Assembly: GCA_036381035.1 (NCBI GenBank)
Contig: DASVDQ010000065.1
Coordinates: 1-64,000, forward strand
DNA length: 64,000 nt
Reading direction: 5' to 3'
Origin: Trueperaceae bacterium
GTDB lineage: Bacteria; Deinococcota; Deinococci; Deinococcales; Trueperaceae
Part shown: positions 17,316 to 45,038 of the stretch, one piece after another
Position numbering within the stretch: position 1 is the first letter of the stretch
Layout of the letters: each line of letters starts with the position of its first letter
The notes under the pieces: model-generated
Database searches by the model: none
Told to the model about the DNA's origin: nothing
What the model saw: only the letters and a program-made list of their open reading frames with translations
Translations under genes and position numbers: made by a program

Positions 17316-18890
17316 TCACTCTCCCACGCTGACGTTCAGGAAGCTGACCTTCTCGAGCGGGTGGGCCGCGAAGCCCTCCACGCCCGGCCTGGCCGCGTGC
17401 AGGTCGCTCTGCCAGTAGAGGGGCACCCACAGGTACTCCTCCGCGATGGCGTCGAGGATCTCGCGGTAGGCCGCGACACGCTCCTCGGGGTCGGTGATCG
17501 TCTGGGCGGTGAGGATGTCGTCGTCGACCGACGTGACGTACTGGTTGTAGTTCGTGCTGCTGCTGTGGAAGATGATCGTCATCACGTAGTCGATGTCGCC
17601 GGTGCTCACGCCCGCGCCGAACAGGAAGAGCCCCAGGTCCTTGGCGAAGATGTGGTCGCGGTACGTCTCCCACTCGTACGTGCCGAGCTCCACCTCGGCC
17701 CCCAGGTCGCGGGCCAGGCTGGCCCGCAGGTACGCGCCGATCTCGGCGTCCTTCGGGTACCGGTTCGTAGTCGTGTAGAGCGTGAAGCTCAGGCGCTGGC
17801 CGTCCTTGACCCTGATGCCGTCCGGCCCGACCTGCCAGCCGGCGGCGTCGAGCGCGGCGGCGGCCGCCTCGGGGTCGTAGACGAGCTGGTGCTCCATCTC
17901 GCTGACACCGAAGACGTTCGGCGAGAAGGAGGCCTGGGTGGCCGGCCTATGCAGGCCCTCGAGGATCGCCGCGCCGATGCCCTCGCGGTCGACCGCCATG
18001 GTGATCGCCTCGCGCACGGCGACGTCGTCGAAGGGCGGCTGGTTGGGGTTGAACCACAGGAACACCGTGCGCAGCGTCTCGGCCTTGTACGTCTGGAACT
18101 GCCCCTCGGCCTCGAGCCGCAGGAAGTCGGGCTCGGGCACCTGGAGGATGAGGTCGACCTCGCCCGACTCCAGCGCGATGACGCGCGAGCTGCCGTCGGG
18201 GATGTAGCGGAACACGACGCCGTCGAGGAGCGGCAGGCCGTCCTGCCAGTAGTCCGGGTTGCGCTCGAGGGTGATCGACTGACCCGTGACCCACTCGACG
18301 ATGCGGAACGGGCCCGTGCCCACCGGCTGGCGGCCGAAGCCGTCGCCCAGCTCCTGGTAGGCGGTGGGGCTGATGATCGCGTTGCCGAGCTGCGCGAGGT
18401 TGTTGATGAACGGCGCGAACGGCTGCTTGAGGACGAACCTCACGGTGAGGTCGTCGACGACCTCGACGCGGTCGAGCTGGCTCAGCAGCGTCACGTAGCG
18501 GCTCTGCCGGCCGTCGACCTCGCCCAGGGCGCGGTCGAACGTGAACTTCACGGCCTCGGCGTTCAGAGGCGTGCCGTCGTGGAACGTCACGCCCTCGCGC
18601 AGGGTGAACGTGTACTCGAGGCCGTCGTCCGAGACCTCCCAGCCGGTGGCCAGGTGGGGCTGGAGGACCATGTTCTGGTCGAAGGCGACCAGGGTCTCGA
18701 AGATGCTCTCCTGGACGACGGAGGAGGGCCCGCCGGCGTCGAGCTGCGGGTCTAGGGTGGGTGGCTCGGTCGGCGCCCCGACCGTGATGGTCCCCTTCGC
18801 GGCGGCGAGGCCGAGGAACGCCGCCGCGAGGAGGGCGACGAGGTGCCGGAGGCGACGCCCGGCTGCCGTGGACCTACGGACTTCTCCCAT
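17316..18890 (-). CDS. Family-5 extracellular solute-binding protein
   Basis: Periplasmic or surface receptor of a peptide-type importer, 524 residues. Signal peptide after a basic start (RRLRHLVALLAAAFLGLAAA). The canonical SBP_bac_5 order follows: ITVGAPTEPPTLDPQ, YTFTLREGVTFHDGTPL, then the C-terminal lobe. Start ATG 18890 has AGGAG upstream and overlaps the repressor gene by 17 bases. Together with gamma-glutamyltransferase downstream, a gamma-glutamyl peptide or glutathione is a reasonable substrate guess, not more. Confidence 0.92.
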   Translation of the reverse strand: MGEVRRSTAAGRRLRHLVALLAAAFLGLAAAKGTITVGAPTEPPTLDPQLDAGGPSSVVQESIFETLVAFDQNMVLQPHLATGWEVSDDGLEYTFTLREGVTFHDGTPLNAEAVKFTFDRALGEVDGRQSRYVTLLSQLDRVEVVDDLTVRFVLKQPFAPFINNLAQLGNAIISPTAYQELGDGFGRQPVGTGPFRIVEWVTGQSITLERNPDYWQDGLPLLDGVVFRYIPDGSSRVIALESGEVDLILQVPEPDFLRLEAEGQFQTYKAETLRTVFLWFNPNQPPFDDVAVREAITMAVDREGIGAAILEGLHRPATQASFSPNVFGVSEMEHQLVYDPEAAAAALDAAGWQVGPDGIRVKDGQRLSFTLYTTTNRYPKDAEIGAYLRASLARDLGAEVELGTYEWETYRDHIFAKDLGLFLFGAGVSTGDIDYVMTIIFHSSSTNYNQYVTSVDDDILTAQTITDPEERVAAYREILDAIAEEYLWVPLYWQSDLHAARPGVEGFAAHPLEKVSFLNVSVGE

Positions 18891-19923: not shown

Positions 19924-21486
19924 ATGGACTTCGGGAGGTTGAGGCGGGTCCTGGCGGCCTGCGCGCTGCTGCTGCCGCTCGCGGCGGCGCTGGCTCAGGA
20001 GGAGCCGGTCGCGGGCGGGACGGCGATCGTCGTGCTGGGGGCCGACCCCGAGCACCTGAACCCCGGCATCAGCACCAGCTACCCGGTCGGTGCCGTGGGC
20101 GCCAACATCTACAGCGGCCTCGTGCGCCTGAACGCCGAGGGGCGTCCCGAGGGCGACCTCGCCGAGTCGTGGACGGTCTCGGACGACGGCCTCGTGTACA
20201 CGTTCACGCTGCGGGAGGCGACGTTCCACGACGGCACGCCCGTGACGAGCGCCGACGTGGCCTACAGCATGAACGAGGTCGAGGGACCGAACCACGGGCG
20301 CTTCCTCAACGCCTACCAGCGCATCGCGGCGATCGAGACGCCCGACGAGCGGACCGTCGTCATCAGGCTCTCCGAGCCGTACGCCCCGCTCATCAGCCTC
20401 CTCACCGTCTTCGACGCTCCCGTGCTCCCGCGCCACGTCTACGAGGGCACCGACCCGCTGACGAACCCGGCGAACTTCGAGCCCGTCGGGTCGGGTCCGT
20501 TCAGGTTCTCGGAGTGGGTGCGAGGCGAGCGCGTGGAGATCGTCCGCAACGACGACTACTTCCGCGAGGACGAGAGGGCGCTGCTCGACCGCATCATCTT
20601 CCGCATCGTGCCGCAGGACGTGGCCCGGTCGACGGCCATAGAGGTGGGCGAGGCCGACCTCCTGTGGGGCTTCTACCTGCCGCCAGCCGACCTGCCGCGC
20701 CTCGAGGCGAACCCCGACGTCCAGACCTGGCAGGGCATCACGATCCCGGCCCTCTACTTCGTGTTCGTCAACACCCAGTCCGAGGGCCTCTCCGACCCGC
20801 GCGTGCGCCAGGCGCTGATGCACGCCATCGACATCGAGCAGATCGTCGAGCAGGCGCAGGGCGGCCTGGGGCAGGCCGCGTCCGGTCCGTTCGGGGCGGG
20901 CTTCGCCTACGCCTACTCCGAGGAGACCGACTACCGCACGCTCTACCCCTACGACCCCGAGCGGGCGCGCGAGCTGCTCGCCGAGGCCGGCGTGAGCGAC
21001 CTGACGCTGCGGTTCGTCTACGACTCGGCGCGCAGCGCGTTCGCGTCCGCCGGCGAGATCATGCGCGACCAGCTCAGGCAGGTGGGCATCACGCTCTTGC
21101 TGGAGCCGGCGGAGCGCGCCGTGATGGTCGACCGCGTCTACAACCGCGACTACGACCTCAGCATGCAGTCGTTCACCTCGGGCGGCGACCCGGCGATCGG
21201 GTACCACCGCATCTACCTCTCGGCCGAGCCCGGCACGCCGTTCGTGAACGCCACCGGCTACTCGAACCCCGAGGTCGACGAGCTGCTGGCCGAGGCCGGC
21301 GCCCTGGCCGACCAGGACGCCCGCGCCCAGGTCTACGACCAGGTGTTGGAGGTCCTCGCCAGGGACCTGCCCGTGCTCGTGATGTTCGACGAGCTGAACA
21401 CCGAGGCCGCCTCCGCCGACCTGCGCGGCATGCGCACGCTGCTCGACCAGCGCGACGGCCTCGAGTTCCTCTGGTTCGCCCGCTGA
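19924..21486 (+). CDS. Family-5 extracellular solute-binding protein
   Basis: Receptor of the second peptide-type importer, about 520 residues. Signal peptide LRRVLAACALLLPLAAALAQ. SBP_bac_5 order: GADPEHLNPGISTSYPVG, YTFTLREATFHDGTPV, YDPERARELLAEAG, then GYSNPEVDELLAEA. Start is ATG 19924 or the in-frame GTG 19915, both after the purine-rich GGGAGGGAAGGA. Head of a six-gene operon whose later enzymes act on nucleosides, adenine and peptides, so the ligand may be a nucleoside or peptide-like compound. Confidence 0.92.
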   Translation: MDFGRLRRVLAACALLLPLAAALAQEEPVAGGTAIVVLGADPEHLNPGISTSYPVGAVGANIYSGLVRLNAEGRPEGDLAESWTVSDDGLVYTFTLREATFHDGTPVTSADVAYSMNEVEGPNHGRFLNAYQRIAAIETPDERTVVIRLSEPYAPLISLLTVFDAPVLPRHVYEGTDPLTNPANFEPVGSGPFRFSEWVRGERVEIVRNDDYFREDERALLDRIIFRIVPQDVARSTAIEVGEADLLWGFYLPPADLPRLEANPDVQTWQGITIPALYFVFVNTQSEGLSDPRVRQALMHAIDIEQIVEQAQGGLGQAASGPFGAGFAYAYSEETDYRTLYPYDPERARELLAEAGVSDLTLRFVYDSARSAFASAGEIMRDQLRQVGITLLLEPAERAVMVDRVYNRDYDLSMQSFTSGGDPAIGYHRIYLSAEPGTPFVNATGYSNPEVDELLAEAGALADQDARAQVYDQVLEVLARDLPVLVMFDELNTEAASADLRGMRTLLDQRDGLEFLWFAR

Positions 21487-29287: not shown

Positions 29288-30340
29288 TCAACTGGGCCAC
29301 ACCTGTCCGAAGACTCTCAAGAAATTGCCGCCTAGGAAACCGCCGATCTGTTGGTCGTCGTAGCCGCGTGCGGCGAGGGCGTCAATGAGGTTCCAGACCT
29401 GGCTATAGGTGTTGAAGTCCGCCAGCGCGCGCATAGGCGAACGGACGTCTCCGCAGACGTGTCTCGCATAGTCCTTCCCGACCTGCACGTAGTCCGGTTC
29501 GCCCCAGGGATCCGTCGTGTGATACGGATAGGTGCCTAGGCTCATATCGGTGCCTATCCCCACGGTGTCGGTGGACCCCGTCAGTTGCACAACGTAGTCC
29601 ACGTGGTCGATGAAGTCGGAGAGCGTGGGCCATGTCGTCTGGCCCTGCTTCAAACAGAACGGTCCGAACGGAGCTAGCCCGATGACCCCGCCTCGGGCGG
29701 TGCAGGCGAGGATCTGCTCGTCCGTGATGTTCCTGGGCGAGTCCACGAGCGCTCGGACGTTCGAGTGGCTGAAGACGATCGGCTGTGAGCTGAGGTCGAT
29801 CATCTCCAGGGTCGACCGGCGGCCGACGTGCGAGCCGTCGAGCAGCAGGCCCAGCCGATTGGCCTCAGCGACGACCTGCTTGCCGAACGCGGTCAGCCCG
29901 TTATCACTGCGTTCGAGGCAGCCGTCGCAGATGTGGTTCATGCGGTTGTAGGCGGGCAGCATCATGCGCAGGCCGAGCCTCACCATGGCCTCGATGCGGT
30001 GCAGCTTGGCGCCGATCCACTCACCGCCCTGGGCGTGCATGAGCAGTGCGGCCCCACCGGTCTCCTTCGCGGTGACTATGTCCTGAGCCGACAACGCTAG
30101 CCGGAGGTTCGGGTTCTGGCGCACCACCAAGTGCCAGAACATGAGGCCTTCGACCGCGTCCTCGAAGTCGTCGTGCACGCGCCAGGCCGTGACGGAATAA
30201 CACGTCGCCCCGTGGCGGTGAGCGTTCGCGAAGTCGGCATCGGGCCAGGCCTGCATACACCCGTCGATGAACACATACGGATGGTCGCGTTCGAGGATCG
30301 GGTGAAAGCCCTTGTTCTCTCGCAGCTCTTGCGTCGGCAC
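29288..30340 (-). CDS. M19 membrane-dipeptidase-like protein with altered metal site
   Basis: Homologue of renal dipeptidase/peptidase M19, about 350 residues. It keeps the second-site histidines (LLDGSHVGRRST and IVFSHSNVRAL) plus NITDEQILAC and GGVIGLAPFG. The first HxD motif of the family (DGHxD) is instead DGCMQ, and the bridging Glu region (usually EGG) reads HAQGGEW. GTG 30340 is chosen because GGAGGAG lies just upstream; an upstream ATG at 30457 lies inside the -35 box and is not credible. Divergently transcribed from the amidohydrolase. Confidence 0.8.
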   Translation of the reverse strand: MPTQELRENKGFHPILERDHPYVFIDGCMQAWPDADFANAHRHGATCYSVTAWRVHDDFEDAVEGLMFWHLVVRQNPNLRLALSAQDIVTAKETGGAALLMHAQGGEWIGAKLHRIEAMVRLGLRMMLPAYNRMNHICDGCLERSDNGLTAFGKQVVAEANRLGLLLDGSHVGRRSTLEMIDLSSQPIVFSHSNVRALVDSPRNITDEQILACTARGGVIGLAPFGPFCLKQGQTTWPTLSDFIDHVDYVVQLTGSTDTVGIGTDMSLGTYPYHTTDPWGEPDYVQVGKDYARHVCGDVRSPMRALADFNTYSQVWNLIDALAARGYDDQQIGGFLGGNFLRVFGQVWPS

Positions 30341-30409
30341 GGCTCCTCCAATGCTGCCCTCTGGGGAGGGCGCCGGCGCCTGTTCCGGTCGCTGCCGGTG
30401 CCGGGCCGG

Positions 30410-30438
30410 TTGTAGCTGTCTGAGCGTTATGCTACACT
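30410..30438 (+). promoter_or_regulatory. Rightward promoter of the amidohydrolase/importer operon
   Basis: -35 TTGTAG (30410-30415), 17-base spacer, -10 TACACT (30433-30438), each 4 of 6 to consensus. Its -10 overlaps the -10 of the leftward promoter, so the two cannot be occupied together. Confidence 0.45.
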
Positions 30439-30457
30439 CATACGAACCGCAGGTCAA
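30429..30457 (-). promoter_or_regulatory. Leftward promoter of the dipeptidase-like gene
   Basis: Minus-strand -35 TTGACC (30452-30457, 5 of 6), 17-base spacer, -10 TAGCAT (30429-30434, 4 of 6). Predicted start about 30422, leaving a leader of about 80 bases to GTG 30340. Confidence 0.55.
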
Positions 30458-30532: not shown

Positions 30533-31924
30533 ATGCGGCCAACGCAGGAGCCCACGGGCGGCACGGCGAGCGGCCGTGCCCGCGTCGGAGTGGAGGTCGG
30601 TGTCATCGACGATCTGTTAGCGCTGCACGAGTCCTTGAGGCCCAGGCTGACGATCTGCGAGCCGGGTGAGGTTCTCATCGTCCACGGTGTGCGGTTGATC
30701 GACGGGCTCGGTTCGGAGCCGAGGGACGGGATGTCCCTACTGGCCAAGGGCGGGGTCATCGAGCGCGTTGGGCCAGACTCGAGCCTCTCCGGCGACGCCG
30801 AGCCAGGTGCGACGGTGCTGGACGGCAGGGGCCTAACGCTCATGCCGGGCATGATCGATGCCCACTTCCACTTCACGGGCAGACCCAAGGACCCGGCCAA
30901 GCGGGAGCTCGAAGCGAACGATGACATCAGGGTCCTGCGCGCTGCCCGCGATGGCCTGATCCTCCTCAACGCCGGGTTCACCGCTGTCAAGAGCATGGGG
31001 CATGGGCGGCCTGCAGTCGTGGACGCGCTCAAGCAGGCCATGGGGGAGGGGTTCCTCGTCGGGCCGACCATCCGCCACTGCGGGTGGGCGTTCTCGCAGA
31101 GCGGCGGACACGGCATCAACCCGGGCTGGCCGTTGGACCTCGTGGAACAGCGACTCCCCCGCAGCGCTTTCGCCGACGGGATCGACGGCTGCCGCGTGGC
31201 GGTGCGGCGCAACTTCGGCGAGGGTGCCGACTTCGTGAAGCTCTATGCGACGCAAGGCCTGAACACGAGCCCGCAGGACAGGATGAACATCCCCAACTAC
31301 ACCTTCGAGGAGCTGAAGGTGATGGCGGACGAGGCTCACAGGCACCGGACACTGGCGTCCGCGCATGCGACCGGCACGGAGGGAGCGATCAACGCTGTCA
31401 GGGCCGGCATCGACACGATCGAGCACGGCCCCGACTGCCTGGACGAGGACGGAGAAGAGCTGCTCGACCTCATGGTCGAGAAGGGAACGCTCTTCGTGCC
31501 GACCCTCGCCTTCGCGAGCAAGGTGCAACACCGCCCGACGTTCACGCCCGAGATGAAGGAACGCGCAGCTCGCCGGTACATGGGCAAGCTGGACTTCGTG
31601 GGGGCAGCGATAGCCAAGGGCGTGCGTATCGCGGCTGGCACGGACTATTCGACACTGCCGCTGGTCGGTCGCAATGCGGAAGAGATCAAGGCCCTACACG
31701 AGGCCGGACTGAGCACGGTAGAGGCGATCGCGGCCGGCACCTCGCGAGCGGCAGAGGCGATGGGGCTCGGCCATCTGCTGGGGGCGGTGCGCCCCGGTCT
31801 GGCAACCGACCTTCTCCTCGTGGATGGCGATCCGAGCGCTGACATCGACGTCCTATGTGACCCCGAACGCATCGTCCGCATCGTCAAGGCCCGTCACACA
31901 TGGCGGGCGCCGGCACCGCTGTGA
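30533..31924 (+). CDS. Amidohydrolase-superfamily metal-dependent hydrolase
   Basis: Imidazolonepropionase/prolidase-like amidohydrolase, 463 residues. Metal motifs in order: GMIDAHFHFTG (HxH on strand 1), ADFVKLYATQ (lysine that is carbamylated in binuclear members), SAHATGTEG, IDTIEHGPD and AAGTDYS (catalytic Asp). The N-terminal beta-sandwich carries ILIVHGVRLIDG. The start is uncertain: ATG 30533 has a weak ribosome site, and in-frame GTG 30590 is possible. First gene of the rightward catabolic operon; likely hydrolyses an amide or peptide-like bond of the imported compound. Confidence 0.87.
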   Translation: MRPTQEPTGGTASGRARVGVEVGVIDDLLALHESLRPRLTICEPGEVLIVHGVRLIDGLGSEPRDGMSLLAKGGVIERVGPDSSLSGDAEPGATVLDGRGLTLMPGMIDAHFHFTGRPKDPAKRELEANDDIRVLRAARDGLILLNAGFTAVKSMGHGRPAVVDALKQAMGEGFLVGPTIRHCGWAFSQSGGHGINPGWPLDLVEQRLPRSAFADGIDGCRVAVRRNFGEGADFVKLYATQGLNTSPQDRMNIPNYTFEELKVMADEAHRHRTLASAHATGTEGAINAVRAGIDTIEHGPDCLDEDGEELLDLMVEKGTLFVPTLAFASKVQHRPTFTPEMKERAARRYMGKLDFVGAAIAKGVRIAAGTDYSTLPLVGRNAEEIKALHEAGLSTVEAIAAGTSRAAEAMGLGHLLGAVRPGLATDLLLVDGDPSADIDVLCDPERIVRIVKARHTWRAPAPL

Positions 31925-32007
31925 GCTCAGAGACCCGGACCACTCCCTTGGTGTCGCTGAACACCAAGCTCCCGAGTTCTCGACGGAACGACCTAGGAGG
32001 TAGGCGA

Positions 32008-33666
32008 ATGGCAGCAAGACAACAGCGTAGGCCCTTGCGCACCCTCGCGATCGCATGGGGTCTTCTCGCGACCGTGGCGATGGGCCAAGCGCAGGCGCAG
32101 GCTCCGGCGGCGGGCGAGAAGGTCCCCGAGCTCCTGCTCATAGGCTGGACCCTCTCCGCGGACCCCGTCCGGTACGAGATCGGCGAGATGTTCGTGAACG
32201 ACATGAAGCGTTACCTCGGCGTCGATGTCCGGCACCTCACCCTCGAGTCGGAGGCCAAGGAGCCGTACTACAGGTCCGAGACCGACTACGCCTTCTCCTT
32301 CTCCATCACGGGTCTTGCGGCGAGACCTTGGACCGTGGATCCCGACGAGACGCTCGGCCGGTTCCACTCGCGCAACATCTACGACGGCGGGACGAACCAG
32401 TGGGGATACAACAGCCCAGAGTTCGATGCGCTGATCGATGCTCAGAAGACCGAGCTCGATGTCGAGAGACGCCGGCAGCTCGTCTACGACGCGCAACGCG
32501 TCATGTACGAGGACGTCGGCGCCCTGAACCTGTACGCGATCCAGATCGTCGGCTTGTACAACAAGGACCTCTTCACGAACTTCGTGCCCATGTACGGCAC
32601 GGGCGCGTTCAACTTCTGGAACGCCATCGAGCTCGAACCCCTCACAGATCAGCGCGTCCTGCGGGTCGCGAACGTCGGTGAGCCGGGCTCGCTGAACGTG
32701 GTCCAGTCGAGCCTGGGTGAGCTCGAGATCCTCCAGCAGATCTTCGATACCTTGGTCCGCATCAACCCTCAGGGCGAGACGGTGCCCTGGATGGTCACCG
32801 ATATCCAGAGCCCCGATCCCCAGACGTTCGTGATGACCCTGAGAGACGACCTCAAGTGGCACGACGGCGTCCCCCTGACGGCGGAAGACGTCGTGTTCAC
32901 CTTCGACTACTACAAGGAGAAGGGGCAGCCCCGCCTCGACGGTCCGCTGCGCCAGATCGCGTCGGTAGAGGCCCTCGACGAGCGCAGCGTGAAGTTCACC
33001 CTGAACGCTCCATCAGCTTCGTTCCTCACCGTAGTGCTCGGCCAGGCGTTCATCCTTCCCAAGCACATCTGGGAGAACGTCGCTGAGCCCCACACCCTGA
33101 GCGTGATCGAACATCCCGAGCTGATGATCGGCAGCGGTCCGTTCAAGTACGAGCACTGGCGCCTTGGAGAAGAGATCTACGTCTCGGCCGTGAAGGACTA
33201 CTTCGCGCCGCCGAAGATCGACGGCATCAGGCACATCGCCTACGCCGACAACGACGCCGCCTTCGTGGCGATGCGAACGCAGAACGCCGACATCACCTCG
33301 CGGCCGGTCCTGCCTGACCAGGCCAAGGAGGCCGAGAACTTCCCGTTCCTGGCGATCAGTCGGCCCGTGGACATCAGCGCGCGGTACATGGCCTTCAACT
33401 TCCGCAGGCCTCCCACCAGCGACGTGGCCTTCAGGCGCGCGGTCGCATACATGATCCGGTACGACTACATCGTCGACACGCTCCTCGCCGGCGACGGTTC
33501 GAACTGGAACACCGGCCTCATCACCCCCGGCAACAGCGCGTGGGCGAACACGGAGCTCGAGCAGTTCACGTTCGACCCCGAGAAGGCGCGCGCCATCCTC
33601 GAAGAGGCCGGCTACACCTGGGACGCCGAGGGCAACTTGCACTTCCCAGCGGACATGGGGAACTGA
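32008..33666 (+). CDS. Circularly permuted family-5 solute-binding protein
   Basis: Exported receptor, about 552 residues: SD AGGAGG (31995-32000) seven bases before ATG 32008 and a signal peptide ending AMGQAQAQ. The domain order is reversed. Residues about 30-210 match the usual C-terminal lobe (EIGEMFVNDMKRYLGVDV, WGYNSPEFDALIDAQ). Residues about 215-552 match the usual N-terminal part (VLRVANVGEPGSLN, VMTLRDDLKWHDGVPLTAED). The protein ends at DPEKARAILEEAGYTWDAEG plus about ten residues, where other members continue into the lobe found here at the front. Followed at 12 bases by permeases. Ligand unknown. Confidence 0.88.
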   Translation: MAARQQRRPLRTLAIAWGLLATVAMGQAQAQAPAAGEKVPELLLIGWTLSADPVRYEIGEMFVNDMKRYLGVDVRHLTLESEAKEPYYRSETDYAFSFSITGLAARPWTVDPDETLGRFHSRNIYDGGTNQWGYNSPEFDALIDAQKTELDVERRRQLVYDAQRVMYEDVGALNLYAIQIVGLYNKDLFTNFVPMYGTGAFNFWNAIELEPLTDQRVLRVANVGEPGSLNVVQSSLGELEILQQIFDTLVRINPQGETVPWMVTDIQSPDPQTFVMTLRDDLKWHDGVPLTAEDVVFTFDYYKEKGQPRLDGPLRQIASVEALDERSVKFTLNAPSASFLTVVLGQAFILPKHIWENVAEPHTLSVIEHPELMIGSGPFKYEHWRLGEEIYVSAVKDYFAPPKIDGIRHIAYADNDAAFVAMRTQNADITSRPVLPDQAKEAENFPFLAISRPVDISARYMAFNFRRPPTSDVAFRRAVAYMIRYDYIVDTLLAGDGSNWNTGLITPGNSAWANTELEQFTFDPEKARAILEEAGYTWDAEGNLHFPADMGN

Positions 33667-33678
33667 GAGAGATCTAGC

Positions 33679-34647
33679 TTGCTCAGGTTCGTCGGCGAAC
33701 GTTTGGTCCAGGCGCTCATCACCGTCTGGATCATCCTCACGGTCCTGTTCGTGGTCTTCCGGCTCATGCCGGGAGACCCGGCATCCTTTCTCGTCGATCC
33801 CAACCTGCCTGAAGAAGCGCGGCAACTGGTGCGGGAGAGCCTCGGGCTCGACAGGCCCGTGGCTCTCCAGTACCTGCAGTACATGTCGGACCTGGCCACT
33901 GGAGACCTAGGTAGGTCCCTGTGGTACCGGGCGTCCGTGAGCCTGATCATCGGGGAGAAGCTCGCAGCGACGCTGATCCTCGCGCTCGCATCCTTCATCA
34001 TCTCCTACGGCGTCGGAATCGTCGGGGGCGTGATCTGGGCCGCCACGAGAGGAAGCCGCTTCGAGGCCATCACCAACCTCGGGGTCCTCTTCGTTCGCAG
34101 CATGCCGACCTTCTGGTTCGCGATCCTCGCCGTCTCGATATTCGGGATCGGTTTGGGATGGTTCCCGACGTCCGGCTTTCGCACTCCAGGCTACGAGGCG
34201 GCCGGGTTCTTCTCGAAGTACTTCGACCCCGATGCTCTGCGCCACCTGGCGCTGCCGGCGATGGTCCTCGGCGTTAGCCACATGGTCGTGCCGATGCTGT
34301 TGGTGCGTGACGGCATCCTCGAGATGACCGGCGAGCCGTTCATGGAGGTCGTCCGGGCCAAGGGGCTGCCGAGGTGGCGCGAGTTGTGGCATGCGACCCG
34401 CAACGCTCTGATCCCGGTCGCCACCTCCGCGGCGGTCTACTTGGGGACCGCCATAGGCGGACAGGTGCTGGTGGAGACCGTCTTCTCCTGGCCCGGGCTG
34501 GGCCGCGAGATCGTGGCTTCAGTAGCGCGACAGGACTTCGTCATGGCCCAAAGCAGCTTCTTCCTGCTCTCCATCACCGTGATCGGCTTCAACATGATCG
34601 CCGACCTCCTCTACGGCTACCTGGACCCACGGATCAGGACCAACTGA
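33679..34647 (+). CDS. Peptide-type ABC importer permease (DppB-like)
   Basis: 322 residues, TTG start (33679) 12 bases after the binding-protein stop, with only a weak purine stretch before it. Typical beginning LRFVGERLVQALITVWII, RLMPGDPASFL and EAA loop RAKGLPRWRELWHATRNALIP, ending IADLLYGYLDPRI. Partner of the permuted binding protein. Confidence 0.92.
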   Translation: MLRFVGERLVQALITVWIILTVLFVVFRLMPGDPASFLVDPNLPEEARQLVRESLGLDRPVALQYLQYMSDLATGDLGRSLWYRASVSLIIGEKLAATLILALASFIISYGVGIVGGVIWAATRGSRFEAITNLGVLFVRSMPTFWFAILAVSIFGIGLGWFPTSGFRTPGYEAAGFFSKYFDPDALRHLALPAMVLGVSHMVVPMLLVRDGILEMTGEPFMEVVRAKGLPRWRELWHATRNALIPVATSAAVYLGTAIGGQVLVETVFSWPGLGREIVASVARQDFVMAQSSFFLLSITVIGFNMIADLLYGYLDPRIRTN

Positions 34648-34648
34648 A

Positions 34649-35542
34649 GTGCTTATGCGTCGCTACTTGAGTACCGCCTGGCGGCCCATAGGTCGTGAAG
34701 TCTCCCGCTTGAAGCAGGATCGCTTGGCACCGATCGGCGCGGTGCTGCTACTTGGCTTCCTGCTGCTGGCAATCTTCGGGCCAGCGCTGGCGCCATACGA
34801 CCCGCGGGAGGTGCAGGTCAACGAGGTAGGGATCGCGAAGCGACTGGAACCACCGTCGGCTCAGCACTGGCTCGGCACCGAGGCTACCGGCCGCGACGTG
34901 CTCAGCCAGCTCCTCGTGGGCGCCCGCGTCGCCGTGCTGGTCGGTTTCGTCGCAGCGCTGCTGGTGGTGGTCATCGGCACCCTCATCGGCCTCTGTGCCG
35001 GTTACTTCGGGGGCTGGATCGACGTGGTCCTGATGCGGTTGACCGATGCCGCGTTCGTCGTCCCCACGATCCCGTTCGTGGTCGTCGTGGTAGCGGTCAG
35101 TCGACCGTCGCTCACCAGCGTGGTGCTCGCCATAGCCCTCCTGTTCTGGAGGTCCTCGGCGCGGGTCATCCGGGCCCAGACCATGGCCCTGCGCGAACGG
35201 CCGTATATCAAGGCGGCCCGTGCGGCTGGCAGCTCTGACGTGAGGATCATCGTTCGACACCTGCTCCCCAATGTCCTGCCGTTGGCCACCCTATACGGCG
35301 CCGTAGGCGTGCAGGCGGCCGTCACCACCGAGGCCAGCCTGAGCTTCCTCGGCTTCGGTGACCCCAGCGTCCTCAGTTGGGGCCGGATGCTGCAGTACGC
35401 GTTCGCCTCTGGCGCCACCAGGGGCGCGTGGTGGTGGGTCGTGCCCCCCGGGCTGATGATCACTCTGTTGGTGCTGTCCGTCTATCTGGTTAGGCGAGGC
35501 TACGAGGACGTGGTGAACCCCCGACTCAGGAGCCGTGCATGA
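34649..35542 (+). CDS. Peptide-type ABC importer permease (DppC-like)
   Basis: 297 residues; GTG 34649 follows the DppB stop by one base (an in-frame ATG at 34655 is an alternative). LGTEATGRDVLSQLLVGARVAVLVG and the coupling loop KAARAAGSSDVRIIVRHLLPN identify DppC. Its end overlaps the ATPase gene by four bases. Confidence 0.92.
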   Translation: MLMRRYLSTAWRPIGREVSRLKQDRLAPIGAVLLLGFLLLAIFGPALAPYDPREVQVNEVGIAKRLEPPSAQHWLGTEATGRDVLSQLLVGARVAVLVGFVAALLVVVIGTLIGLCAGYFGGWIDVVLMRLTDAAFVVPTIPFVVVVVAVSRPSLTSVVLAIALLFWRSSARVIRAQTMALRERPYIKAARAAGSSDVRIIVRHLLPNVLPLATLYGAVGVQAAVTTEASLSFLGFGDPSVLSWGRMLQYAFASGATRGAWWWVVPPGLMITLLVLSVYLVRRGYEDVVNPRLRSRA

Positions 35543-36642
35543 GCGGGGCACCCGCGATCTCGACCTCGTCGGAGCCGGCCGGTCTCCCGGGAACGCTCCT
35601 GAGGGTGCGTGGTCTCTCCGTGCGCTATCGGGTCGGAGACGGTGCTGTGGCACGCGCCGTGGACGACGTCAGCTTCGACGTCCCTCGTGACCGCACCGTC
35701 GGTCTCGTGGGCGAGTCAGGCTGCGGGAAGACCACCGTGGCGAAGACGTTGCTGAGGCTATTGCCGCCGAACGCGGACGTCGTGGCGGGCGACATGCTCC
35801 TCGAGGGCCGTGACCTGTTGGCCCTTGACCCGCAGGAGTTCAGGCGCCTGCGCTGGACTCGCCTCTCCTACATCCCGCAGAACGCCCTCAGCGCGCTGAA
35901 CCCCGTCTTCAGGGTCGGTGACCAGATGGCCGAGCCGATGAGGGTGCATCGTGGCGTGTCGAAGAAGGAGGCTGCGCGGACCGTCGCGAACGCGCTGGCG
36001 AAGGTCGGATTGGACGGCACCGTCGCCTCGGCGTACCCGCACCAGTTGTCGGGAGGGATGAGGCAGCGCGTGCTCATCGCCATGGCACTGGTGTTGGAGC
36101 CGGTGTTGGTCGTCGTGGACGAGCCCACGACGGCGCTCGACGTGCTGACACAGCTCGAGGTCTTGAAGGAGTTCAAGCGCGTGCGGGAGCAGTCCTCCAC
36201 GAGCTTCCTATACGTGAGCCACGACCTCGGGGTCGTGAAAGAGGTGTGCGACGACGTCCTGGTGATGTACGCGGGCAAGCTCGTGGAGCGCGGCCCGGCC
36301 GATCGCGTCTTCTCCGGGCCGGCGCACCCGTTCACGATGGGACTCCTCTACGCCGTCCCCGAGTCCCGCGGCGCAGCCCAGCTGGTCTCCATCCCCGGTG
36401 CCACTCCCGACCTCCGACATCCGCCGCGGGGATGTCCCTTCGCCGAACGGTGTCCGTTCGCGACCGAGCTGTGCTTGGAGGAGATGCCCGCCTTGCGCTC
36501 CGTTGGAGACGGCCAGGAAGCCGCCTGCCACTACGTGGAGCGGTCGCCGGCCTTCCGCGAGGACGCCTCTCGCGCCGAGACCTGGGGCCGCGTAGCGGAC
36601 CGCCTCCGGTCCGCCCGGGCCCGCGAAGCGGGGAACCCATAA
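35539..36642 (+). CDS. Peptide-type ABC importer ATPase (DppD/OppD-like)
   Basis: 367 residues, ATGA overlap at the start. Walker A GESGCGKTT, Q-loop IPQNALSALNP, signature LSGGMRQRVLIAM, Walker B VVVDEPTTALD and H-loop VSHDLG. C-terminal oligopeptide-transporter extension with the cysteine cluster of iron-sulfur-binding members (CPFAERCPFATELC). Works with the DppF-like ATPase encoded next. This pair is the only one in the window and might also serve the ATPase-less importers nearby. Confidence 0.94.
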   Translation: MSGAPAISTSSEPAGLPGTLLRVRGLSVRYRVGDGAVARAVDDVSFDVPRDRTVGLVGESGCGKTTVAKTLLRLLPPNADVVAGDMLLEGRDLLALDPQEFRRLRWTRLSYIPQNALSALNPVFRVGDQMAEPMRVHRGVSKKEAARTVANALAKVGLDGTVASAYPHQLSGGMRQRVLIAMALVLEPVLVVVDEPTTALDVLTQLEVLKEFKRVREQSSTSFLYVSHDLGVVKEVCDDVLVMYAGKLVERGPADRVFSGPAHPFTMGLLYAVPESRGAAQLVSIPGATPDLRHPPRGCPFAERCPFATELCLEEMPALRSVGDGQEAACHYVERSPAFREDASRAETWGRVADRLRSARAREAGNP

Positions 36643-37631
36643 TGAACCAAGGTCAGGCGGACGTGGTGATGCGCGTCAGCTCCGTCCAGAAGCAGTTCAG
36701 GAGGCGCGGCGTCCGCGGGTCGGTGCTGCGAGCCGTGGACGACGTGAGCATTGCGTTGCGACGCGGCGAGCTGTACGGGCTCCTCGGCGAGAGCGGGTCC
36801 GGCAAGAGCACGCTGGCGGAGATCATGGCCGGGCTCCAGTGGCCCACATCCGGGAGCATCCATGTGGGCGACGTCGCTCTGGAGCCTGGCATGCCGCGCA
36901 AACAGTGGCGAGAGCTACGCAGGCAAGTGCAGGTCGTGTTCCAGAACCCCTTCGAGAGCGTCAACCCGCGCTTCAAGGTGTCCGAGATCGTGGAGGAGCC
37001 GTTGGCGGTGGCCGGGGTGGGCGGTCCCGAGCGGCGGAGGCGTGTGACTTGGGCTCTCGAGCGCGTGGGCCTGCCTTCAGCCAGCGACTTCGCCTCCAGG
37101 TTCCCTCATGAGCTCTCGGGCGGGCAGCTTCAGCGCGTGTGCATAGCGCGCGCGTTGACGGTCGACCCAGCGATTCTCATCGCCGACGAGCCCGTGTCCA
37201 TGCTCGACTTGTCCGTAAGGGCGGGAGTGTTGAGGCTGCTCGATGACCTCAAGCGCACCCAGAACATGGCGATACTGATGATCTCTCATGACATAAGCAC
37301 GCTGTCCGCGGTCGCGGACAGGCTAGGAGTCATGTACTTCGGCAAGATCGTCGAGGCCGGTCCGGCTGAGGTCCTGATGAGCTCGCCCAGCCACCCGTAC
37401 CTGAAGGCGCTGCTGGCCGCCGTCCCCACGCTCGGCGACACGCTCCTTGGAGGGGCAGACCGACTGACGCTGTCGGCCGCTACCTTGGAGCGGCCCGCTC
37501 GCGGTTGCAGCCTCGCTCCTCGCTGCCCTCTGGCTGAGGACAGGTGCAAGGTGGAGGAGCAGGAGCTTCGCTCACTGAGGTCGCACTCCGATCACGCCGT
37601 GCGCTGTTGGAAGGTGCGAGGCGACTCTTGA
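36642..37631 (+). CDS. Peptide-type ABC importer ATPase (DppF/OppF-like)
   Basis: About 329 residues from ATG 36642, which shares a base with the preceding TAA (TAATG). Walker A GESGSGKST, Q-loop VFQNPFESVNPRF, signature LSGGQLQRVCIARAL, Walker B ILIADEPVSMLD and H-loop ISHDI. The C-terminal cysteine cluster is CSLAPRCPLAEDRC. Its stop overlaps the amidase start (TTGA). Confidence 0.94.
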   Translation: MNQGQADVVMRVSSVQKQFRRRGVRGSVLRAVDDVSIALRRGELYGLLGESGSGKSTLAEIMAGLQWPTSGSIHVGDVALEPGMPRKQWRELRRQVQVVFQNPFESVNPRFKVSEIVEEPLAVAGVGGPERRRRVTWALERVGLPSASDFASRFPHELSGGQLQRVCIARALTVDPAILIADEPVSMLDLSVRAGVLRLLDDLKRTQNMAILMISHDISTLSAVADRLGVMYFGKIVEAGPAEVLMSSPSHPYLKALLAAVPTLGDTLLGGADRLTLSAATLERPARGCSLAPRCPLAEDRCKVEEQELRSLRSHSDHAVRCWKVRGDS

Positions 37632-39319
37632 CGGGCACGGAGCTGCCAGACCTATCCATAAGCGAGCTCGCGCCGCTAATCGAGCGGCGCCAGGTCTCCC
37701 CAGTGGAGGTCACCGCCGCGGTCCTGGAGCGGATCGAGCGTCTCGACCCGATACTGCACTCGTACATCACCGTCCTGCCAGAGCGTGCGATGGACGAGGC
37801 ACGTCAGGCAGAACGGGAGATCCTGGCCGGTCGTCACCGCGGGCCCCTACATGGGATCCCCATCGCGCACAAGGACGTGGTCGCCACGAAAGGCGTGCGG
37901 ACCACGGCTCACTCCCGAGTCCTGCTGGACCACGTGCCCGATGACGACGCCACGGTCGTGCGGCGTCTGGCAGAAGCCGGAACGATACTGCTGGGGAAGC
38001 TGAACACCTACGAGTTCGCTTGTGGCGCTACCGAAGTCTTCGGTGTCCCGGTGAACCCGTGGGACACGGGCCGTATCACCGCGGGTTCGAGCGCGGGCTC
38101 CGGGTCGGCTCTGGCGGCCGGTCTGGCCTTCGGCGCCACGGGCACCGACACGGGAGGCTCGATCCGGTCACCGGCCTCCTTCTGCGGTGTCGTGGGCCTC
38201 AAGCCCACCTACGGTCTCGTCAGTCGCGCTGGAGTGCTACCGCTGTCGTGGTCGCTCGACCACGTTGGCCCCATGGGCAGGCGCGTGCGCGACGTCGGTC
38301 TCTTGCTGGCGGCGATCGCCGGCCACGACGCGGCCGACCCGGGCTCTGCCATGCCGTCCGTCGCAGGCACCGTCGGCGGTTCGGCCCGCGGCGGCGATCC
38401 GTCCACCGCAGGTCTGCGAGGCGTGCGCATCGGCGTGCCCCGCGACCTGTTCGGCGCCGCGATAGATGCGGCGGTTCGGTCGGCGTTCGATGAAGCGCTG
38501 GAAGTGCTCCGGGACCTGGGCGCCTCGGTCACCGCCATCGACCTGCCGGAAGCCTCGCTCACGGCCGCGGCGCAGAAAGGCGTGATGCTGCCCGAGGCCA
38601 CCTTGGTACATGCGGGATGGCTTCGATCTCGTCCCTACGACTACTCGGCGTCGACCCGCCGGAGGCTGCTTCTCGGCGCCGCGATCAGCGGACCCGAGTA
38701 CCTCGAGGCACAGAGATTGAGACAGCTAGTGCGGCATGGACTCGCCGTCGCGCTCGAGAGAGTAGACGTGCTCGTGTGGCCCACGAGCGCGCGGCCAGCC
38801 CTGACAGTCGATGAGACCCAGGTGCCGGTTGGCTTGCAAACGAGGCTGACGAACCTCACTGGAACTCCATCCCTGTCACTACCCTGCGGCTTCTCTCCCG
38901 ACGGCCTGCCACTGGCGCTGCAAGTGAACGGCCGTCCCTTCGATGAGGCGACCGTCATCCGTGTGGCAGCTGCCTTCGAGGCCACAACAGGTTTCCACAA
39001 GCGACTCCCGGCCGTCGCGGCCGAGGCACCCAAGGTCAAGGGCGAACAGCGTCTCTTCGAGACTCCGGTGGGTCCGATACCTTCCCGCGACAGAGAAGTG
39101 CTCGTACGAGACCTGGAGAACGGGTTGCGTCGACTGGAGATACCGCTCCTGCCCGAAGACCGCGAACCCCTCATCAGCGATCTGTATCAGTTCCGCGAAG
39201 TCCTACGGCTCGCTGTCGAGGCGTCTTCCGGAAGACTCGAGCCCTCCGTGCACCAGGCGCCGCTGGCGTCGCCAACCCTCGAAGTCGGAGCGGGCGGCGC
39301 CGGTCCCGGCCCCAGGTGA
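37628..39319 (+). CDS. Amidase-signature hydrolase with C-terminal extension
   Basis: Ser-cisSer-Lys amidase, about 563 residues. Catalytic Lys in GIPIAHKDV (about 82), Ser/cis-Ser in GSSAGSGSALAAG and TDTGGSIRSPA (about 153 and 177), then GLKPTYG. TTG 37628 is preferred because TTGA overlaps the previous stop; an upstream ATG at 37544 would force a long overlap. The last 95 or so residues (from about VKGEQRLFETP) lie beyond the usual end and resemble no domain I recognise. Probably hydrolyses an amide bond in the imported substrate. Confidence 0.87.
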   Translation: MTGTELPDLSISELAPLIERRQVSPVEVTAAVLERIERLDPILHSYITVLPERAMDEARQAEREILAGRHRGPLHGIPIAHKDVVATKGVRTTAHSRVLLDHVPDDDATVVRRLAEAGTILLGKLNTYEFACGATEVFGVPVNPWDTGRITAGSSAGSGSALAAGLAFGATGTDTGGSIRSPASFCGVVGLKPTYGLVSRAGVLPLSWSLDHVGPMGRRVRDVGLLLAAIAGHDAADPGSAMPSVAGTVGGSARGGDPSTAGLRGVRIGVPRDLFGAAIDAAVRSAFDEALEVLRDLGASVTAIDLPEASLTAAAQKGVMLPEATLVHAGWLRSRPYDYSASTRRRLLLGAAISGPEYLEAQRLRQLVRHGLAVALERVDVLVWPTSARPALTVDETQVPVGLQTRLTNLTGTPSLSLPCGFSPDGLPLALQVNGRPFDEATVIRVAAAFEATTGFHKRLPAVAAEAPKVKGEQRLFETPVGPIPSRDREVLVRDLENGLRRLEIPLLPEDREPLISDLYQFREVLRLAVEASSGRLEPSVHQAPLASPTLEVGAGGAGPGPR

Positions 39320-43316: not shown

Positions 43317-44822
43317 CTACTCGAGCGAGGCCTCGCGCAGGTACCGCAGGCCGCGGGTCGGCATCTGCTGGAAGCCCTCGACCTCGTCGGCGATCGCCGT
43401 GAACAGCGTGCCGTACGCGATGTGCACGATCGGGCCCTCGCAGGCCAGCTTGCGCTGGAGGTCGGCGTAGATCTCGTAGCGGGCGGCCTGGTCCGTGGTC
43501 GTGCGGCCGGCCTCGAGCCACTCGTCCACCTCGGGATCGGAGTACTCGAAGACGTTGGTCGAGCCGCCGGTGATGAAGGTGCGGTGCAGGTAGCCGTCGG
43601 GGTCGGAGCTGCCGCCGTTGAGCGAGACGAACATGTCGAAGTTCGAGTTCGTCCAGTCCTGCACGAACTGGCCGAACTCGGCCACGTTCACGTTCGCGTC
43701 GATGCCGATCTCGGCGAGCTGGGCCTGCAGCACCTGGGCGGTGTCGGTCACCACCTGGATCGTCCCGAAGGTGAGGATCTCGGTCTCGAAGCCGTCGGGG
43801 TAGCCGGCCTCTGCCAGGAGCTGGCGGGCCATGTCGAGGTCCGTCGCGTAACAGGGGAACTCGCCGGTGTCGAGCGCCCACTCCGTGAGGCCGGGGCTCA
43901 AGGGGCCGCCGGGGACGGCGTTGCCGAAGTACACGGCGTCGACGATCTCGGCGCGGTCGATCGCGTAGTTGATGGCCATGCGCACGCGCGGGTCGTCGAA
44001 CGGCTCGCGCGAGACGTTGAGGCCCAGCAGCGTGTAGGCGAGGTCCTGCACGCCCAGCAGCTCGACGCCCGGCACGCCGCGGAGCGTCTCGGCGGTCGCG
44101 GGGTCGACGTCGGGGATGAGCTGGTAGGCGCCGGTCCTCATGCCGGCGGCGCGCGTCGAGGCCTCGGGGACGATGTTGTAGCGCAGGCCGTCGAGGACCG
44201 GCTGGCCCTCGCGGTAGTAGTCCGGGTTCTTGACCAGGCTGACGTACGTGTCTGGCACGATCTCGTCGAGCATGAACGGACCGGTGCCCACGGCGTGCTG
44301 CTGCAGGTCGCCGAACTCCTCGACGACCTCGTGCGGCACCACGTAGAGGTTCGCGAGGTTGCTGACGAACGGCGCGAAAGGCTGCGAGAGCGTGAACGTG
44401 ACCTCGTACTGGCCGGTGGCGACGGCGGACGCGACCGCGCTGAAGCGGCTCGCCTGGGGCGAGGCGGTGTCGGGGTCGACGATGCGCTCGTACGAGTAGA
44501 CGACGTCGTCGGCGGTCATCGTGCGGCCGTTGTGGAAGCGCACGCCCTCGCGGAGCTTCACGACGTAGGTGAGGCCGTCGTCCGACACGGTCCAGGACTC
44601 GGCGAGCGCCGGCTCCACGGCGAGGTCGGCGTTCAGCTCGACGAGGCCGTCGTAGATCTGCCCGATGACGACGAACGAGGAGAAGGCCGTCACCTTGTGG
44701 GGGTCGAGGCCCACGGGCGCCGTGTCCGTGGCGATCTCGAGGACGCCCTGAGCGCCGGCGGCGCCGCCCAGCAGCGCGACCGCCAACAGGAGTGAGGTGG
44801 CTAGACGTCTTGCTCTTGCCAT
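43317..44822 (-). CDS. Family-5 extracellular solute-binding protein
   Basis: About 501 residues from ATG 44822, preceded by GAAGGGAAGG; an upstream in-frame start at 44870 would add a non-signal-like tail. Signal peptide ARRLATSLLLAVALLGGAAGAQG. Canonical order: LEIATDTAPVGLDPHKV, YVVKLREGVRFHNGRTM, ARQLLAEAGYPDG, then YSDPEVDEWLEA. Head of the third peptide-type importer operon, divergent from the epimerase gene. Confidence 0.92.
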   Translation of the reverse strand: MARARRLATSLLLAVALLGGAAGAQGVLEIATDTAPVGLDPHKVTAFSSFVVIGQIYDGLVELNADLAVEPALAESWTVSDDGLTYVVKLREGVRFHNGRTMTADDVVYSYERIVDPDTASPQASRFSAVASAVATGQYEVTFTLSQPFAPFVSNLANLYVVPHEVVEEFGDLQQHAVGTGPFMLDEIVPDTYVSLVKNPDYYREGQPVLDGLRYNIVPEASTRAAGMRTGAYQLIPDVDPATAETLRGVPGVELLGVQDLAYTLLGLNVSREPFDDPRVRMAINYAIDRAEIVDAVYFGNAVPGGPLSPGLTEWALDTGEFPCYATDLDMARQLLAEAGYPDGFETEILTFGTIQVVTDTAQVLQAQLAEIGIDANVNVAEFGQFVQDWTNSNFDMFVSLNGGSSDPDGYLHRTFITGGSTNVFEYSDPEVDEWLEAGRTTTDQAARYEIYADLQRKLACEGPIVHIAYGTLFTAIADEVEGFQQMPTRGLRYLREASLE

Positions 44823-45038
44823 GCCCGACCTTCCCTTCGCCGGCCCGCCCCCGCCGAGCCGCTGGCGCATGTGCCACCCCGGAGACCAGGCCCAAGCGCC
44901 GATGAGTTGCGTGCCAGGAAGATACCACTAGGAGACCACCTGACCGCTCGACGAGCACTCCCCCGCCGGTGATACGGTGCCGGGCTTAAGGAGGCCGGCA
45001 CCGTCGAGCCCCTCGGCCGGGCTGCTAGGAGGAGAGAG

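Follow-up and report, generated by a model that had tools for sequence, protein, structure and literature searches.

Does a binding-protein gene whose two parts stand in the reverse of the usual order encode a protein that has been circularly permuted in nature, or does that order reflect an accident of assembly or of gene decay? The question is raised by a gene in the 64,000-nucleotide stretch of DNA from a Trueperaceae bacterium that was analysed here (contig DASVDQ010000065.1; hereafter the window). The open reading frame at 32008-33666 is intact, its product has 552 amino acids, and we are highly confident that this is a naturally circularly permuted version of the extracytoplasmic solute-binding protein that serves a Dpp/Opp-type ABC importer. 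The gene and its surroundings comprise the following features:

17316-18890, minus strand: canonical SBP_bac_5 protein, internal control (profile positions 2-366)
19924-21486, plus strand: canonical SBP_bac_5 protein, internal control (profile positions 2-357)
29288-30457, minus strand: peptidase M19, divergent neighbour gene, not constant with the permuted form
30533-31924, plus strand: amidohydrolase, upstream neighbour gene, not constant with the permuted form
31995-32000, plus strand: Shine-Dalgarno sequence AGGAGG, 7 nt ahead of the ATG, read from the sequence
32008-33666, plus strand: circularly permuted SBP_bac_5 gene, 552 amino acids, assigned by Pfam, lobe HMMs and the re-ordering test
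32008-32100, plus strand: signal peptide, residues 1-31, with cleavage judged by eye to fall near AQAQA/PAAG
32116-32634, plus strand: C-terminal part of the family-5 fold (residues 37-209), displaced to the front (lobe HMM, de-permuted alignment)
32635-32646, plus strand: four-residue joint EPLT from the ancestral C terminus to the ancestral N terminus (lobe HMM, clade I linker lengths)
32647-33648, plus strand: canonical N-terminal and middle part, residues 214-547 (Pfam SBP_bac_5, lobe HMM)
33616-33663, plus strand: tail TWDAEGNLHFPADMGN, which follows AGY at the new C terminus and is what remains of the cut loop (from the sequence and the intact loop in canonical L080)
33679-34647, plus strand: DppB-type permease (BPD_transp_1, profile match)
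34649-35542, plus strand: DppC-type permease (BPD_transp_1 and OppC_N, profile match)
35539-36642, plus strand: DppD-type ATPase (ABC_tran and oligo_HPY, profile match)
36666-37631, plus strand: DppF-type ATPase (ABC_tran and oligo_HPY, profile match), start approximate
37628-39319, plus strand: amidase, downstream neighbour gene only, start approximate
43317-44870, minus strand: canonical SBP_bac_5 protein, internal control (profile positions 2-366)

Analysis with the Pfam profile SBP_bac_5 (PF00496) gave a strong yet partial match (220 bits against a gathering cut-off of 32.4; E 5e-65), in which residues 258-542 correspond to profile positions 2-284 of 368 only; as this match ends at position 284 at the end of the protein, the protein stops where the profile goes on. 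The remaining part of the profile was found at residues 37-209 or thereabouts, directly behind the signal peptide, and lobe-specific HMMs read the protein as C then N, not in the canonical N-to-C order. Both this order and the perfect Shine-Dalgarno sequence had been described in a first-pass annotation, which also pointed to the three canonical homologues in the window as a control; each of these matches the profile end to end. The window genome (3.4 Mb) holds about 30 genes for family-5 binding proteins in all. When residues 37-209 were moved in silico behind residues 210-549, the Pfam match rose to 232 bits and extended over profile positions 2-360, and the partial match of the native order to NikZ (PDB 4oet; residues 241-545, 97 bits) became one colinear match of residues 32-510 to 29-489 (112 bits). 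A pairwise MAFFT alignment made directly between the window protein and canonical L080 is unable to reveal a permutation. The protein had been said to end at ARAILEEAGYTWDAEG; the cut does lie at this loop, but the chain runs on with NLHFPADMGN, which completes the loop that was cut. Applied to all loci fetched, the lobe HMMs found 94 reading frames in C-N order, 87 in N-C order, three with N alone and none mixed, counts that are no census since the frames were gathered by similarity, with some loci repeating one gene.

The proposal that the permutation is natural is borne out, beyond the order and the re-ordering match, by a single predicted fold and by recurrence in many genomes. A single-sequence search of genome contigs gave no match, while an alignment query did, and a search of 60 related genomes gave eight relatives for which the alignment with the window protein, in the permuted order, covered most or the whole of the chain; one of the eight lies in a single-contig genome. 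A search profile was built from nine permuted proteins, and within the window's family its scores were bimodal: permuted proteins scored above 430 bits along its whole length, while canonical ones did not exceed 251 bits and matched the N part only. Across the phylum, 15 of 111 genomes carried a permuted protein, and among the matches listed all lay in the window's family. A scan of named genomes extended the form to Bacillota (Dethiosulfatibacter aminovorans DSM 17477, Brevibacillus reuszeri DSM 9887, Anoxynatronum), Pseudomonadota (Bosea, Marinibacterium, Pseudoroseomonas), Actinomycetota and Thermodesulfobacteriota, and to the archaea Halorubrum (Halobacteria) and a Desulfurococcaceae archaeon (Thermoproteota), with the order tested by the lobe HMMs. 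Even draws, in which the order was tested for most of the matches above threshold, placed 12 of 289 genomes above threshold in the class of a Rhizobiales member, 13 of 247 in the Halorubrum phylum and 21 of 300 in the Brevibacillus phylum; in the actinomycetote phylum the figure was four of 247, with one of these (L179) proving canonical, and in the phylum of the Desulfurococcaceae archaeon it was one of 200, namely the seed itself. Neorhizobium galegae (several plasmid records) and Halalkalicoccus jeotgali (plasmid 2) carry the permuted gene on plasmids, as does Ketogulonicigenium vulgare. Several divergent permuted subgroups (L150, L152, L162-L164) have reading frames that extend well past the end of the N-part profile, and a second, divergent permuted family-5 protein, of the independent clade II described below, is encoded on another contig of the window's own genome (L002:1183-2712, contig C132).

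The search with a permuted profile that the first-pass annotation had proposed thus returned the same order in many genomes across bacteria and archaea, and it also disposes of an assembly error or local inversion or duplication: although the window is part of a draft assembly in 170 contigs, such an artefact has practically no chance of producing the same order in relatives only 26-37% identical to the window protein, in independently assembled and complete genomes (single-contig G016, G006, G333 and G604 included), on four K. vulgare plasmid records and in the second permuted gene of the same genome.

Whether the two parts form one body was addressed by structure prediction, which the earlier annotation had named as the test between one closed fold and two partial domains. 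AlphaFold2, run for the window protein with 23 permuted sequences, returned one fold of high confidence (pLDDT 92.9, pTM 0.89, 521 residues), and a clade II member, L076, was likewise predicted well (pLDDT 85.3, pTM 0.84). Judged from the pTM together with the sequence, the displaced segment would occupy its canonical place in the fold, and the permutation apparently does no harm to the predicted shape of the protein. Foldseek searches of the PDB matched NikZ, NikA, AppA, DppA and OppA over about 350 columns, or about two thirds, with a TM score of about 0.5; a partial match is expected of a sequential aligner given a permuted chain and is no proof by itself. Each half is recognised alone by a profile, as would also be seen if a remnant C-lobe had been fused to an N-lobe as two separate partial domains, or if the gene were a decaying pseudogene. 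We regard this as very improbable in view of the single confident fold, the intact and conserved reading frames, a joint of mostly four residues, and the retention of operon and export signals.

The permuted gene adjoins DppB/C permeases and DppD/F ATPases, as does a component of a Dpp/Opp-type importer. Of 21 permuted loci, nearly all have homologues of DppB, DppC, DppD and DppF behind the gene, and the set lies downstream in the window and on three annotated plasmids. The window protein has a start and a hydrophobic segment directly ahead of the displaced part, which provide an export signal, and simple patterns identify signals of Sec, lipoprotein or Tat type in its relatives. An apparent enrichment of Tat signals among permuted members was dropped, the patterns being crude and the enrichment inflated by haloarchaea. 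Because a DppB-C-D-F operon almost always begins with this gene where it occurs, the product is most likely an ordinary Venus-flytrap binding protein that, as far as its sequence and context tell, would clasp its ligand between two lobes and pass it on to the importer. The permuted protein would then close on the ligand and dock on DppBC as its canonical relatives do. Some loci (L062, L067) have no obvious complete operon directly behind the permuted gene, and might be taken to mean that the protein no longer takes part in ABC transport and serves as a chemoreceptor or scavenging protein; with nearly all permuted genes heading a DppB-C-D-F set, this is improbable as a general account.

As to the ligand, the indications are slighter. 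Clade I, to which the window protein belongs, has a GRPxRxDPD-like sequence at the position of GDNGDPDN in DppA-like proteins, a segment that we take to hold, in DppA and OppA, the Asp binding the amino group of the peptide. If the segment does bind the amino group, the difference would make a ligand without a free amino group likely, and as a weak lead we suggest for clade I a molecule lacking a free alpha-amino group. Neighbouring genes for hydantoinase/oxoprolinase, M20/M28 peptidase, creatininase and gamma-glutamylcyclotransferase may fit the same kind of ligand; they occur at 10 of 20 permuted loci against six of 42 canonical ones (with the window's genes also among the queries), an enrichment that is biased and serves as a lead only, because the queries were picked from permuted loci. 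On the K. vulgare plasmid pYP12 (L180), M28/M20 peptidases and two hydantoinase/oxoprolinase sets flank the permuted operon, a possible clue to the ligand. The amidase and amidohydrolase neighbours, with which the form had been suggested to track, do not accompany it: the same 20 permuted loci contained no homologue of the M19 peptidase, none of the amidohydrolase and one of the amidase, while DppB-C-D-F were nearly constant.

How often the rearrangement has happened was approached with trees in which the two parts had been re-joined in canonical order. The permuted proteins fall into clade I, which is monophyletic (support 96), and clade II, comprising the L002 group, Symbiobacterium L076 and several Bacillota. 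Clade I proteins mostly have 11-24 residues in the tail past AGY, and 3-7, mostly four, in the joint; clade II proteins end three residues past AGY, and their joint has no extra residue. The joint of L076 is seamless, the old last residues HRVRITN running directly into the old mature start GGTIVIAL, and when compared in swapped order with L106, a canonical protein of Tepidanaerobacter, L076 shows 62% identity over 330 amino acids and 50% over 155, with the two segments abutting at residue 247 of the read-through frame. The canonical Thermotogae protein L080 retains the clade I loop uncut, as AGYSWNKEGKLLYPDGTPVEPFTILTPS, and joined clade I in one tree, not in a later one.

From these sequence comparisons, the same loop between helix and strand seems to have been the site of permutation on at least two independent occasions. 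A single permutation ancestral to all permuted proteins, with the two-clade tree as an artefact, would accommodate the shared cut site and the long deep branches. It is nonetheless unlikely: AU tests rejected trees in which clades I and II were held together (p 1.9e-54 with the earlier tree, 1.5e-62 with the later one), clade II is more than 50% identical to canonical L106 and shares with it the motif WGxxxxDP instead of GRPxRxDPD, the motif of clade I, and the tail lengths differ between the clades. Within the preferred reading of at least two events, L106 and L109 are the canonical proteins nearest clade II, and L106 branches inside it; as clade II as one group was not rejected (p 0.06), a reversal or a further origin is possible, and the placement of L106 suggests one of these or an error of the tree. 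The archaeal protein L140 may be a member of clade I (p 0.24) or a third event. It carries a Thr/Pro-rich stalk behind its new C terminus (L140:1327-3147), and L056, a permuted protein of the same genome, has an N-terminal hydrophobic segment together with a Thr/Pro stalk; judged from these two sequences, both new termini seem usable for tethering.

We propose that each permutation arose by in-frame tandem duplication followed by loss of the outer parts, the textbook route to circular permutation; tandem N-C-N-C or C-N-C intermediates were absent from the roughly 180 reading frames read with the lobe HMMs. In the permuted protein a few residues link the ancestral C terminus to the ancestral mature N terminus, the new termini lie in a surface loop of the second lobe, where a helix with AG[YF] at its end leads into the next strand, and a signal peptide stands ahead of the displaced part. 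The main consequence would be a shift of the N-terminal export or anchor segment from the first lobe to the second.

The window protein shares profile family and operon type with cluster C proteins (DppA, OppA, NikA, NikZ) and is colinear with NikZ once re-ordered, but has its two parts swapped. A precedent for a permuted solute-binding protein exists only in another fold class: Treponema pallidum Tp0684 (TpMglB-2), a circularly permuted ABC-importer protein that binds ligand and changes conformation, has the first three strands of its N lobe at the C terminus and an added fourth hinge crossover, and its authors, who proposed the class 'Type Ic / Cluster Bc', raised the possibility that it is adapted to tethering (PMC4990184). 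Both are natural permutations of importer binding proteins; TpMglB-2, however, has the Type I/cluster B sugar-binding fold and stems from another family and a separate event, and the profile and fold matches of the window protein are to family 5, which places it outside cluster Bc. Many permuted members, that of the window included, have an apparently cleavable signal peptide, so tethering alone is no general reason for the form. A report on permuted halves of ribose-binding protein concerns halves excised in the laboratory to study binding-protein fold evolution, with no natural permuted family (PMC9815098).

The first-pass annotation knew of no described permuted member of the family, and we found no earlier description of a family-5 permutation in the open-licence papers searched. 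No NCBIfam equivalog for solute-binding proteins was reached (best 117.8 bits against a cut-off of 650); none of the best 60 matches of PDB sequences to the permuted profile spans it, and no permuted relative appeared among the PDB sequences or Foldseek matches examined. The permuted family-5 form is real and widespread, and apparently undescribed until now. Where plasmid-borne genes are annotated, they are called 'ABC transporter substrate-binding protein', a generic label borne by permuted proteins, which profile tools call truncated.

We consider it probable that in cluster C binding proteins the second-lobe loop between helix and strand is a permutation hot spot, opened independently at least twice (with a possible third opening in archaeal L140 and a possible reversal in L106), and that this gave rise to large, horizontally spread bacterial and archaeal families, for which we suggest the name 'cluster Cc', with the export or anchor segment on the other lobe. 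The natural permutation site also offers a ready place for the construction of biosensors. To our knowledge, natural circular permutation has rarely been seen repeatedly in one protein family in which close unpermuted relatives survive; family 5 offers dozens of permuted proteins, two separate events in a single loop, and a permuted and canonical pair at 50-62% identity. Such repetition, together with so close a pair, makes testable how permutations originate, what role the order of folding and export plays, and what follows from which lobe is tethered.
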